A DNA stretch of 5,069 bases from Microcaldota archaeon (GTDB lineage: Archaea > Micrarchaeota > Micrarchaeia > Micrarchaeales > Micrarchaeaceae): NCBI GenBank assembly GCA_021819045.1, contig JAKASM010000040.1, positions 1 through 5,069 on the forward strand, in the 5' to 3' direction. Position 1 is the stretch's first letter, and each line of letters opens with the position of its first letter. Made by a program: the position numbers and the translations under genes. The notes under the pieces are model-generated. The model ran no database searches, was not told the origin of the DNA, and worked only from the letters and a program-made list of their open reading frames with translations. This document shows, piece after piece, positions 685 to 5,069 of this stretch.

Positions 685-1653
685 TCATGGCGGTGTATAG
701 CTGCTGGTCCATGAACTTGTATATGTAACCCCGGTAGGTACACCATTGTTGCCGTTACCACTATAATCGTTTGCATTGCCATTCAACGGCCACCATCCTA
801 CAAGGTTCTGCAGGTCTATCGGCGCGCCGCCTATGCCCTCACGATATAAGGCTTGTATGTCATTCGAGGACAACGAAGTGTTATAAAACTGGACGTTTGA
901 TAACTCACCCTCCATAGATTGCCAGTATCCTCCATCCGGAAAGCAGCCATTGTTACCGGCGCTCATGCCGCCCAGAAGTACTTGGTACGATGACCCATAG
1001 CTTCCCCCATTCGTAGGGAATGTTACTGTGCCACTGCTCCTTCCTTGGGAACTGCCATTTATGTAGAACTGCTCTGTGGTCGTTTCTGCATCGTAAGTTA
1101 GCGTCAGAAAGTACCATGTATCTGTAGTCACAGAAGACCCCTCTATGGGAGATATCGGGTAGGAACCAGCTAGAAAACTTCCCTTGTAAACTTCTATATT
1201 TTTGATACACCCTCCACTGTTCAGCCCATTTTCAAAAATTATAGATTGATTTTGTGTTTGTCCAGAGATTGAGTTTATATTCACCCATGCACTCAAGGTA
1301 TATGAAGGCCTTGTCCATATTAGAGGCGAAATGGCGACGTACTCACTACCTCCTCCGAAGCTTGCAACGTACTGCGGCAGCTCGCCGTTGCATACGCCTC
1401 CAAGGTTTATGAAAGAGGTGGTGCCTGGGCCGTTAGGCCTGTATACCTGGCAAGAGCCAGGCTGCGCCCTAGGGGTGAAGTTTGCGCTGTTGAATACTCC
1501 CAAAGAGAAAAGCGCAACCATGACAATCGCGATAATGAGTATAGCCCATCCGTATGTCATTAGGTACTCCATTGCGCTCTGGGCCTTTACTGTGAAACTC
1601 ACATATGTGTTTCTATTTTTATTTTTCTGCCCTGCAAAGCGCTGCTTTTTCAT
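685..1653 (-). CDS. Class III signal peptide protein with LamG/concanavalin-like domain
   Basis: Predicted 322-residue surface or pilin-like protein. Residues 1-24 form a basic leader ending KA, followed by QSAMEYLMTYGWAILI and a hydrophobic helix to about residue 54. This is the archaeal class III signal: prepilin peptidase should cut A24|Q25, and Glu lies at mature +5 as in type IV pilins. The rest is exported and resembles a LamG-type jelly roll (Laminin_G_3): YVASFGGGSEYVAI (95-108), YTLSAWVNI (118-126), WYFLTLTYD (180-188), FYINGS (196-201), and LSNVQFYNTSLSSNDIQALY (251-270). Four Cys (68, 88, 149, 237) could form disulfides. The tail LVGWWPLNGNANDYSGNGNN (284-303) normally begins such a domain. 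I chose the ATG at 1653; an in-frame ATG at 1683 adds 10 residues, but a TATA-like element at 1681-1688 would start the transcript close to 1660. The role is probably adhesion or glycan binding on the cell envelope; the ligand is unknown. It is a single-gene unit on the same strand as the tRNA behind it. Confidence 0.85.
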   Translation of the reverse strand: MKKQRFAGQKNKNRNTYVSFTVKAQSAMEYLMTYGWAILIIAIVMVALFSLGVFNSANFTPRAQPGSCQVYRPNGPGTTSFINLGGVCNGELPQYVASFGGGSEYVAISPLIWTRPSYTLSAWVNINSISGQTQNQSIIFENGLNSGGCIKNIEVYKGSFLAGSYPISPIEGSSVTTDTWYFLTLTYDAETTTEQFYINGSSQGRSSGTVTFPTNGGSYGSSYQVLLGGMSAGNNGCFPDGGYWQSMEGELSNVQFYNTSLSSNDIQALYREGIGGAPIDLQNLVGWWPLNGNANDYSGNGNNGVPTGVTYTSSWTSSYTPP

Positions 1654-1680
1654 AGACTCAATACTTCTATTGTAAAAAAG

Positions 1681-1689
1681 CATAAAAAT
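1681..1689 (-). promoter_or_regulatory. Weak TATA-like element of the LamG gene
   Basis: Minus-strand ATTTTTATG lies about 33 nt before the ATG at 1653. A start about 25 nt downstream of its centre would fall near 1660, giving a leader of a few bases, which supports the 1653 start over 1683. No clear BRE or Shine-Dalgarno is visible. Confidence 0.25.
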
Positions 1690-1782
1690 GGTGTTGTCAG
1701 CGTCAGTTTGGCTGAGTCCTGGAATGCCGCAAGATTGTGGAAGTATGATGAGAGATTTACACTCGCCTTCTTCAATGCCAAG

Positions 1783-1856
1783 TGCGATCGCCGGGATTTG
1801 AACCCGGGTCTTTGCCTTGGAGGGGCAAAGTCCTAACCAGGCTAGACTACGATCGC
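1783..1856 (-). tRNA. tRNA-Gly (anticodon TCC), C at position 33
   Basis: A full cloverleaf of 74 nt without intron. Acceptor GCGATCG (1850-1856) pairs with CGATCGC (1784-1790), and discriminator A is at 1783. The D stem is GTCT/GGAC with an AGCCTGGTTA loop. The anticodon stem is TTGCC (1824-1828) with GGCAA (1812-1816) around the 7-nt loop CCTCCAA. The T arm is CCGGG TTCAAAT CCCGG. CCA is not encoded. The anticodon is TCC (complement at 1819-1821), reading GGA and probably other GGN codons. A73 fits archaeal tRNA-Gly, and the D and T arms resemble other archaeal tRNA-Gly(TCC). The oddity is position 33 (complement at 1822): it is C where nearly all elongator tRNAs have U. Every other registration of the anticodon loop breaks the stem. 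The gene has its own TATA element, so it is probably transcribed separately from the histone-fold gene 91 bases upstream. Confidence 0.93.
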
Positions 1857-2457: not shown

Positions 2458-3030
2458 CTAAATCGCTCTCCAAAGGCTATTGAAATGATCTTTTAATGCT
2501 GATATTCTTCCAATGTCATATATAACTTCTATATGCTCTATGTTCTTCCTGGTTCCAGAATAAGTAAGATTCGCGCTTCCAAGTACTGCAGAACTGCCGG
2601 ATATGTATAGCTTTTCATGTATGAACTTGCTATCCGATACTTTTACTTCAATCCTGTTCCTTAGCTTCGACGCCCTTTTTATCGCAATTGCGAGAAGTAT
2701 CGCCACAATAGGCATTAGGAGAACTTCAAGGTAGTATAGCTTCAAAAAGAAGAATACAACTTCCAATATTATGAAGTATATTGCCGCTTTTATGTAACCA
2801 GAGCCAGCCCGGCTTCTTCGCATTAGCCTAATCGCATCAGAACTGACCACAGAATTGGATGTGATTACCCTGACGTGCCTCCTTCCAGATGCCCATATCA
2901 GCATTCGCGCATAGTATTTGTTTATATAAGGGCAGACTATTAGCAGTTCTGAGCGCGTTTTTTCTTTTATAAGCTTATCTATTTCCTTGTAAGTTTCATC
3001 TCCGCTGTAGCTTTTGCTCTGCTCGCCCAT
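2458..3030 (-). CDS. Membrane-anchored phospholipase D-like protein (single HKD motif)
   Basis: Protein of 190 residues. The C-terminal part has a PLD/nuclease catalytic motif: H138-E-K140, then GSANLT (151-156) and YSG, fitting HxK...GSxxN of PLDc_2-type domains. The Asp expected five residues after the Lys is Gly145. The N-terminal half supplies an earlier strand and loop of the same fold (SELLIVCPYINKYY at 28-40; HVRVITSNSVVSSDAIRL at 52-69). Between them sit two hydrophobic helices (about 79-98 and 101-117) making a membrane hairpin, so both soluble halves should face the cytoplasm (positive residues R70-R74 and K118-R126 flank the hairpin). With one HKD, activity would need a dimer, as in Nuc-type nucleases. 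The substrate could be phospholipid or nucleic acid; the sequence does not decide. The promoter TATTTAAG lies 28-35 nt before the ATG, so the mRNA is nearly leaderless. The gene is divergent from the tRNA synthetase. Confidence 0.8.
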   Translation of the reverse strand: MGEQSKSYSGDETYKEIDKLIKEKTRSELLIVCPYINKYYARMLIWASGRRHVRVITSNSVVSSDAIRLMRRSRAGSGYIKAAIYFIILEVVFFFLKLYYLEVLLMPIVAILLAIAIKRASKLRNRIEVKVSDSKFIHEKLYISGSSAVLGSANLTYSGTRKNIEHIEVIYDIGRISALKDHFNSLWRAI

Positions 3031-3136: not shown

Positions 3137-5069
3137 ATGATTAATCTAAACGAGCGAGAAGAAAAAATATTGGAGTACTGGAAAACCAATAATGTCGAGG
3201 AATTGGTGCGGTCAAAGAACAGAAACGGCAAAAAATTCTATTTTCTTGACGGACCGCCATATGTAACCGGTGACATCGCAAGCCATCACATATGGGTGAT
3301 CACTACAAAGGACATAGTCTTGCGTTATAAGAGGTACAACCACTACAATGTCCATGACAGGCCAGGTTTTGATGTCCACGGGCTTCCTATAGAGAATAAA
3401 GTTGAAAGAAAACTAGGGGTAAAATCCAAGGGCGATATAGAAAGCAAAATAGGCGTGGAAAAATTTATCCAGGAGTGCAAGAATTATGCAGAAGAGCAGA
3501 TAAAAGAAGCTACAAAAATGTACAAAAGGTATGGATACTCAGCAAACTTCAATGAAACGTATATTCCACTAAGAAATGCATATATGAGTAAGGGATGGAT
3601 GATATTCAAGGAACTGCATAAAAAAGGCCTCATCTATGCAGATCTGCAAGCCCTTGCTTATTGTCCGCAGTGCGGTACAGTATTGTCATCTCAAGGGCCA
3701 GAAATAGAGTATTCGGATGAGACGGATACCTCAATATTCGTCAAGTTCCCTGCAATAAAATCCTCTAAACTCCAATTGGACAAAAATACATTCCTGGTGA
3801 TATGGACAACAACACCGTGGACACTGCCAGCAAATATGGCCATAGCAGCAAACCCCAAAGCGCGATATGTCATTGCTGAATCTAATGGAGAAAATTATAT
3901 AATTGCTAAAGAGAGGCTTGATGCTTTTGTTGAAGCGACTAATACGAATGTTATAATCAAGAGGGAGTTTTATGGTTCTGAACTTGGAGGGCTTCAGTAT
4001 TCCAACCCATTGGAAAACAAAATACCTATGCAAAGGAACTTTTCCAAATACCACAAAGTTCTTTTGGATGAAAACCTGGTGTCAATTTCCGAGGGAACAG
4101 GGTTGCTCCACGTCGCACCAGGGCATGGGCCTGAGGACTATAAGCTCGGGAAAGAAAACAAGATACCTATCTTTTCACCTGTAGACGAGCATGCGAATTA
4201 TACAGAAGAAGCAGGAGCTTATAAAGGGCTAAATGTTCCTTCAGAGGCGAACCGCGTTATTCTCCACGACCTTAAAGAAGCTGGAAACCTCCTATTCCAA
4301 GGAGAAATAAAGCACACCTATCCGCATTGCTGGCGCTGCGGCAGCAAACTGATATTTAGAGCAACAAAGCAGTGGTTCATTAATGTAAAAAAATTAAAGA
4401 AAAAAATGCTCATAGAAAATAAAAAAATAAAATGGCATCCGGTCGTAGCGCAGAAATGGCAGGCAGACGCAATAGAAAGTTCTCCTGATTGGTGCATTTC
4501 AAGGCAAAGGTATTGGGGGACGCCGGTGCCGATATGGGTATGCGGCGGATGCAAATGTTTTGATGTGGTAGGCTCTATCGAAGAGTTAGCGGAGAGGGCC
4601 GGACTTGAGGCTGCGCCTCAAGACATCCATAAGCCACACGCTGATAATATTAAAATAAAATGCAGCAGCTGCGGCGAAATGATGCAAAGGATACCAGATG
4701 TATTCGATGTATGGTACGATTCCGGGGTGTCGCACACCGCAAGCCTTACAGACGAGGAATTCAGTGTGCTTTTTCCGGCAGATTGGATAACAGAAAGCAG
4801 AGATCAGATAAGAGGGTGGTTTAGCGTGCTGTTAAGGACTAGCGTAGGCGCGTACGGCCGGAGAAGCTTCAACGAAGTTAATATAGGCGGCATGATACTG
4901 GATGAGATAGGAAGGGAGATGCACAGGCACCTGGGCAATTCAACAAGTGCCTCGGATCTGCTTAAAATAGCATCTGCTGATGGATACAGGCTATGGAACT
5001 CCAGGCACCCGAGATGGCAAGAATTAAGGCTAAAGAAAAAAGAGCGAGAGGATGCGGACGGCGACATAC
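3137..5069 (+). CDS. ileS: Isoleucyl-tRNA synthetase with altered HIGH and KMSKS motifs (3' end outside window)
   Basis: First 644 codons of a class Ia synthetase, IleRS type, which charges tRNA-Ile with isoleucine in the cytoplasm. Order: FYFLDGPPYVTGDI and the HIGH position (residues 48-51); GFDVHGLPIENKVE; zinc cysteines C176/C179 with C398/C401; CP1 editing domain with WTTTPWTLPAN (223-233) and GTGLLHVAPGHGPEDY (320-335, Asp334 kept); DWCISRQRYWG (451-461); second zinc knuckle C469/C472 with C509/C512; DVWYDSG (524-530); ESRDQIRGWF (553-562); and the KMSKS loop GGMILDEIGREMHRHLGN. These features fit IleRS better than ValRS or LeuRS. The oddities are ASHH in place of HIGH (HxGH), EMHRH (594-598) in place of KMSKS, and Ser554 in place of Gly in EGxDQ. 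No stop or frameshift occurs, so it is not visibly decaying. It could be the cell's only IleRS with a reworked ATP site, or a paralog with another job. The start ATG overlaps a preceding TAA (TAATG). The anticodon-binding domain lies beyond the edge. Confidence 0.93.
   Translation, partial: MINLNEREEKILEYWKTNNVEELVRSKNRNGKKFYFLDGPPYVTGDIASHHIWVITTKDIVLRYKRYNHYNVHDRPGFDVHGLPIENKVERKLGVKSKGDIESKIGVEKFIQECKNYAEEQIKEATKMYKRYGYSANFNETYIPLRNAYMSKGWMIFKELHKKGLIYADLQALAYCPQCGTVLSSQGPEIEYSDETDTSIFVKFPAIKSSKLQLDKNTFLVIWTTTPWTLPANMAIAANPKARYVIAESNGENYIIAKERLDAFVEATNTNVIIKREFYGSELGGLQYSNPLENKIPMQRNFSKYHKVLLDENLVSISEGTGLLHVAPGHGPEDYKLGKENKIPIFSPVDEHANYTEEAGAYKGLNVPSEANRVILHDLKEAGNLLFQGEIKHTYPHCWRCGSKLIFRATKQWFINVKKLKKKMLIENKKIKWHPVVAQKWQADAIESSPDWCISRQRYWGTPVPIWVCGGCKCFDVVGSIEELAERAGLEAAPQDIHKPHADNIKIKCSSCGEMMQRIPDVFDVWYDSGVSHTASLTDEEFSVLFPADWITESRDQIRGWFSVLLRTSVGAYGRRSFNEVNIGGMILDEIGREMHRHLGNSTSASDLLKIASADGYRLWNSRHPRWQELRLKKKEREDADGDI

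Follow-up and report, generated by a model that had tools for sequence, protein, structure and literature searches.

A swapped HIGH motif and an altered KMSKS loop in an isoleucyl-tRNA synthetase of Micrarchaeota

The HIGH (HxGH) and KMSKS motifs are textbook hallmarks of class I synthetases. The locus described here, a 5,069-nucleotide stretch of archaeal DNA that we refer to as the window, encodes an isoleucyl-tRNA synthetase (IleRS) in which neither motif has its usual form, and it raises the question of whether such a protein is a working enzyme and of where its unusual active site came from. A first-pass annotation of the window had proposed that HxGH is replaced by ASHH, in a layout resembling that of a natural bacterial IleRS2 variant, and had argued against random decay. 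It did not mention the accompanying change of KMSKS to EMHRH.

The ileS reading frame runs off the end of the window and is open throughout; judged from P0001, a full-length near-copy of 1040 aa that is 99% identical, the complete protein would be about 1040 aa long. The 644 aa present in the window were sufficient to score 650.3 bits against TIGR00392 (isoleucyl-tRNA synthetase), for which the curated ileS cut-off is 621.4, and 324 bits against PF00133. The nearest named loci, L002 (89% identical) and L001 (87%), are titled Candidatus Micrarchaeota. An AlphaFold model (pLDDT 92.7) showed the fold to be present, matching those of T. thermophilus IleRS and P. megaterium IleRS2 over 625–628 residues at 35–36% identity; the own motifs of these two enzymes are canonical (HVGH, KMSKS), and the P. 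megaterium chain used for the comparison, 8c8w, is the GVHH mutant. Structural Z-scores gave a mixed outcome as a marker of type 2 and did not sort the types cleanly, S. aureus IleRS1 (1qu3, 34.7) scoring above T. thermophilus IleRS (1ile, 32.9). As the window ends before the C-terminus, the type was examined on P0001, in which the family scan found DUF5915 (64 bits) and no zf-FPG_IleRS, the reverse of the IleRS1 control L219. DUF5915 is what we take, from five scanned proteins and general knowledge, to be the marker of type 2. Based on this C-terminus and the missing zinc finger of its near-copy, the window IleRS appears to be of type 2. Profiles for MupA and MupB gave 375.5 and 402.1 bits, to be read against exception cut-offs of 1900 for about 1030 positions when the window supplies only 644 aa; bearing on the same comparison, the window IleRS is placed among archaea in the trees described below.

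The replacement of HxGH by ASHH was borne out by the codons themselves, by the register of helix alpha1 and by an alignment of 120 homologues (Table 1). The phmmer alignment with T. thermophilus IleRS is gap-free across the ASHH stretch, the fourth His stands at the same distance from the conserved Lys-Asp of helix alpha1 in the two proteins (H51...K58-D59 in the window), and in the AlphaFold model this helix begins at residue 49. We also looked for a true HIGH motif elsewhere, an outcome that the first-pass annotation had named as fatal to its proposal. Across the 644 aa the HIGH-like pattern HxG[H/Q/T/N/S/G/A] matches a single string, HLGN at 598. This forms the end of the KMSKS loop, so that a true HIGH in another part of the protein is excluded. 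With ASHH and EMHRH the enzyme departs from the canonical class I motifs, though by its fold and its ileS family score it is a class I IleRS; swapped IleRS of this kind would be called dead if annotated solely by motif.

Table 1. Features of the window, with positions counted from its first nucleotide
Feature	Position	Strand	Basis
332 aa protein, Laminin_G_3 lectin-like domain, prepilin-like N-terminus by eye (hydrophobic stretch after QSAMEY)	685-1683	-	family scan
tRNA-Gly (TCC) gene	1782-1856	-	
190 aa protein, PLD-like (phospholipase D superfamily), with a hydrophobic stretch; oriented divergently to ileS	2458-3030	-	family scan
ileS, N-terminal 644 aa of isoleucyl-tRNA synthetase	3137..5068	+	TIGR00392 score; near-copy P0001
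Swapped HIGH motif A48-S49-H50-H51 (GCA AGC CAT CAC)	3278..3289	+	sequence; alignment of 120 homologues
His50, third motif position; cf. P. megaterium IleRS2 GVHH mutant	3284..3286	+	alignment of 120 homologues; PMC10485003
Editing (CP1) domain, residues 197-390, with WTTTPWT stretch and conserved H325/D334 region	3725..4306	+	VIA match to T. thermophilus editing domain 1ue0; invariant columns
Gly584, two residues N-terminal to the alignment column of P. megaterium His582; 95/95 in swap clade	4886..4888	+	alignment
Altered KMSKS motif E594-M595-H596-R597-H598	4916..4930	+	sequence; homologue alignment
Arg597, replacing the second Lys of KMSKS; accompanies the swap clade	4925..4927	+	row comparison, 120 proteins and 150 genomes

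The distribution of the swap was examined among proteins and among genomes. The homologue set comprised the best-scoring 120 of 8000 scored proteins, which are the closest relatives, so that the proportions are no survey: 88 read [A/G/M]x[H/Y]H (49 AxHH, 28 GxHH, 9 GxYH and 2 MxHH), 31 kept the first His (30 HxGQ and 1 HxGG) and one was without the region. IleRS was then read in 150 genomes, made up of 24, the best 30 of 196 phylum genomes searched, 111 order genomes and five of a family sample; these sets overlap and their choice was non-random. The motif [AG]x[HY]H was found in 35 of the 150, with Arg at the second KMSKS Lys in 34 and the KMSKS region missing in G066. The order sample alone, in which 111 of 118 genomes gave a match and seven gave none at 1e-100, contained 32 swapped genomes. 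In every group the 115 non-swap genomes all kept the first His (27 HxGH, 45 HxGQ, 30 HxGT, 5 HxAQ, 3 HxAH, 3 HxGG, 1 HxGA and 1 HxGS); the second Lys was kept in 112 of them, the other three being without the region, and Arg was found in none. The third position is Tyr, not His, in 11 of the 96 swap rows of our alignment, and over the 35 swap genomes it is encoded by CAT in 7, CAC in 23, TAC in 4 and TAT in 1. Other departures from HxGH were seen on the way: HPGT (or HTGT) occurs, nearly always with KMSKS, in another large DPANN IleRS group (L069–L098 and part of the Aenigmatarchaeota loci from L228 onward), and the motif Gly is changed to Ala with KMSKS kept in IleRS reading HPAH (L186, L188, L214) or HPAQ (L168, L169, L189, L195, L197).

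For phylogenetic analysis the four HIGH and five KMSKS columns were excluded. The FastTree input of 280 rows (317 minus 37 near-copies) placed the 96 archaeal swap rows and the N-truncated P0103 in one clade of 97 tips with support 1.0. Its sister is an 87-row group with HxGQ, HxGH, HxAx and similar motifs, the union having support 0.997 and the sister itself 0.78. In an IQ-TREE analysis of 62 chosen rows a branch with 100/99 support set all 24 swap rows apart, inside Micrarchaeota, and bacterial GVHH IleRS2 fell among bacteria. A joint clade of the archaeal swap and bacterial GVHH IleRS2 was rejected by the AU test (p 0.0002). The bacterial comparators were of the Nonomuraea type only, the other G/AXHH clade of Brkic et al. 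lying outside the trees. The swap maps to a single tree branch, and because the swap clade is nested in Micrarchaeota and the joint clade is rejected, it arose in archaea separately from the sampled bacterial GVHH lineage. These results indicate that the bacterial IleRS2 swap evolved again in another domain.

We then examined whether the swapped gene has a conventional partner. Exactly one frame above the ileS cut-off was present in 34 of the 35 swap genomes, the gene of G066 being divided over two contigs. Among matches to E 1e-60 no further IleRS exceeded the cut-off in these genomes; the extra matches scored 222–284 bits, covered the profile's later portion and fell in frames as long as a ValRS, three of which (L065, L248 and L252, from G004, G002 and G008) passed both archaeal-type valS cut-offs. 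The order-genome search was also single-copy, at a threshold (1e-100) that could miss a distant second copy. The swapped ileS lies in contigs of at least 668 kb (G042) and at least 620 kb (G035), from genomes of about 0.8 and 1.0 Mb; swap carriers are archaea with small genomes, met chiefly in environmental DNA. The evidence for a single copy is that the draft genomes of 35 relatives (MAGs where so titled, and given without completeness figures) agree, and a ValRS match was absent altogether from swap genome G005. The swapped enzyme is thus apparently the only IleRS of its genomes. Three sequence pairs gave dS of 1.25–1.98, dN of 0.058–0.075 and dN/dS of 0.035–0.05, which places the protein under purifying selection. 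Together with the clade-wide motif and the type 2 C-terminus, the copy number and the selection on the gene uphold both the earlier argument against random decay and the earlier view of the protein as an archaeal-type enzyme with a layout that parallels the bacterial swap. Since many genomes apparently have no IleRS other than one with both HIGH and KMSKS replaced, cells must be able to live with the replacement.

Control synthetases were read in twelve genomes, seven of them swapped: ValRS in eleven (seven swapped) and LeuRS in eight (five swapped), three of each being confirmed by family scan and the others named by length and match. None of these 19 proteins carries the swap. The ValRS read HxGH or HxGQ with xMHK, that of G006 being without the first-motif region, and the LeuRS read KMSKS with HxGH, or with TLGH in G006, G007 and G008.

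The bacterial precedent named in the first-pass annotation proved correct, and it includes an AXHH enzyme. In the parts of Brkic et al. 2023 (PMC10485003) drawn on here, G/AXHH is described in bacterial IleRS2, among them those of D. radiodurans (ALHH) and S. griseus, with I, V, L, M or Y at position 2. The N-epsilon of the third His in GVHH P. megaterium IleRS2 sits at the site of the first-His N-epsilon of HVGH, and a displaced tip of helix alpha1 is given there as the reason why type 2 enzymes tolerate the swap. D. radiodurans IleRS2, with its natural ALHH, equals canonical IleRS2 in catalytic efficiency, the third His taking over from the first, and motif exchange moves the Ki for mupirocin by up to 10^3-fold, the G/AXHH form having the higher Ki, in the mM range (PMC10485003). 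The archaeal enzymes share with this bacterial class a Gly or Ala first, His third and fourth, the position at the helix alpha1 tip and the type 2 C-terminus, and A48, H50 and H51 of the window agree with positions 1, 3 and 4. They differ in that Ser49 lies outside the bacterial range for position 2, which in archaea is most often Ser, Ala or Val, and in that the third residue may be Tyr (the bacterial reference here being Nonomuraea GVHH, L218). The Nonomuraea-type set reads GVHH in 119 of the 120 proteins listed, one being without the region, and KMSKH in all 120; the second Lys is replaced by Arg in the EMHRH of the window. Alignment with Micrarchaeota and with bacterial swapped IleRS2, as the first-pass annotation had advised, thus upheld a common layout but, given this difference in KMSKS and the AU result (obtained with one bacterial lineage), not descent from the sampled GVHH lineage. 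The closest relatives are instead the sister Micrarchaeota IleRS (HPGQ, HPGH, HPAH, HPAQ), of which those among the best 120 are 50–55% identical to the window and most have xMHKx; unlike the swap clade they keep the first His and, with the one exception of P0108 among the best 120, the Lys.

At the place of the second KMSKS Lys, 87 of the 88 swapped proteins have Arg, as do one of the 31 with the first His retained and the single protein lacking the HIGH region. Two proteins break the pattern, P0078 by combining ASHH with Lys and P0108 by combining HPGQ with Arg. A statistical coupling of swap and Arg was not established, as the changes coincide once and only two independent contrasts are available. 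Interpreting the whole KMSKS change as a unique oddity was partly rejected: the xMHKx loop, in which Ser has become His and the first Lys another residue, is common to most sister IleRS and to the ValRS read. Since it also occurs in ValRS, this loop is a habit of the lineage, and only the step from the second Lys to Arg accompanies the IleRS swap. Comparison of the 96 swap rows with the sister group of 87 and with 20 more outgroup rows identified states at or near fixation in the swap clade that seldom or never occur among the commonest states of the two other groups: a small residue at 48, His or Tyr at 50, Gly584, Arg597 (94/95), Pro625-Arg626 and Ser554. Position 584 is mostly Asp or His in the sister group and Gln in most outgroup rows. 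The nearby His582 of P. megaterium IleRS2 has been likened to the adenine-stacking Phe of IleRS1 (PMC10485003, in the part drawn on here); its equivalence with the Gly584 region comes from a hand count on the phmmer alignment with T. thermophilus IleRS. The fourth His (96/96), Gly584 and His596 are invariant in the swap clade at identities down to 51% and so represent a fixed new state.

Based on these results, we consider it highly probable that the swapped protein is the sole, active, housekeeping IleRS of a lineage within Micrarchaeota and that its active site has been rewritten in nature. With no other IleRS found, the archaeal enzyme presumably works, and because it shares the layout of bacterial G/AXHH enzymes, His50 most likely replaces the first His. 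By analogy with the third His of bacterial GXHH IleRS2, His50 would substitute for the missing residue in stabilising the transition state of isoleucine activation, and Arg597 may supply the positive charge of the KMSKS lysine within a re-shaped loop. More weakly, a bulky residue at position three would be predicted to clash with mupirocin and so to confer high resistance. Besides the two exceptions to the pairing of swap and Arg, the single coincidence of these changes, the mixed structural Z-scores and the draft state of the genomes, two observations count against this account: the Tyr found in some swap rows cannot exactly copy a His side chain, and the Nonomuraea-type GVHH proteins all keep the KMSK lysine, so that activity with Arg597 cannot be borrowed from them. 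The Tyr suggests either that a different hydrogen-bonding side chain can fill the role or that the requirement is looser than in the bacterial enzymes. A bolder extension, which we hold to be doubtful, is that His50 and Arg597 (with Gly584) form a co-adapted ATP-activating set in which neither change would be good alone, selected by a natural IleRS inhibitor in these communities; it would amount to signature-motif hyper-resistance in archaea, an independent repeat of the bacterial solution.

A history without an antibiotic is somewhat better placed than that extension, though we still give it less than an even chance: under relaxed constraint in small-genome archaea the motif would have drifted and been compensated, leaving catalysis perhaps slower yet sufficient. 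We know of no mupirocin source in these habitats, and the 150 genomes read also hold HxGH, HxGQ, HxGT, HxGG, HxGS, HxGA, HxAH and HxAQ, a variety which, with the swap in the same phylum, offers a natural series for testing motif conservation; ValRS with HMGQ in four genomes and LeuRS with TLGH in three point the same way. The invariance of the fourth His, Gly584 and His596, with Arg597 almost so, speaks for a fixed state and not for ongoing drift. Such a history addresses the cause of the swap and not its mechanism, and can be compatible with a sole, active IleRS.

Acquisition of a bacterial GXHH IleRS2 by gene transfer would explain the identical layout and the type 2 C-terminus of both. The swap clade, however, lies inside Micrarchaeota IleRS beside HPGQ and HPGH enzymes, the AU test speaks against a common clade and the KMSKS motifs differ; inheritance is largely refuted for the sampled GVHH lineage, and we regard it as very improbable. 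Equally slight is the chance that the protein is a catalytically dead or re-purposed paralogue, a reading suggested by two abnormal signature motifs and by SbzA, described in the part of PMC9437257 drawn on here as an IleRS homologue with another job. It was rejected on copy number in the 35 swap genomes, where this is the only IleRS found, and the editing, anticodon-binding and C-terminal domains are all present. The window is a single stretch without reads, and a sequencing or assembly error or a wrong alignment register might be suspected; the agreement of 88 of the 120 best homologues, from several sources, and of 35 genomes refutes an error, and helix alpha1 and the AlphaFold model fix the register, the other HIGH-like string belonging to the KMSKS loop. 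The likelihood of either fault is practically negligible.

The G/AXHH motif itself is already published. A search of PMC for literature pairing Micrarchaeota with isoleucyl-tRNA synthetase returned nothing, and among the papers listed by further searches none reported archaeal G/AXHH in its title or start of abstract; within that scope, no earlier account was met of the motif in archaea, of its independent emergence there or of its combination with a changed KMSKS. The part of PMC10485003 drawn on here counts 41 archaeal IleRS with their motif unstated, and an unremarked archaeal case may be among them.

Variation at the first motif was also seen in the control synthetases. The fourth HIGH position is Gln (HMGQ) in the ValRS of G002, G007, G008 and G023 (L248, L251, L252 and L259, with L248 and L252 confirmed by scan), and the first His is Thr (TLGH), with a normal KMSKS, in the LeuRS of G008, G006 and G007 (L255, L256 and L257, with L255 and L257 confirmed by scan). 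Of the remaining genes in the window, the 190 aa PLD-like protein gave weak matches to DpdK and DrmC that fall under the cut-off, and the 332 aa Laminin_G_3 protein is perhaps a surface adhesin, to judge from its domain and N-terminus.
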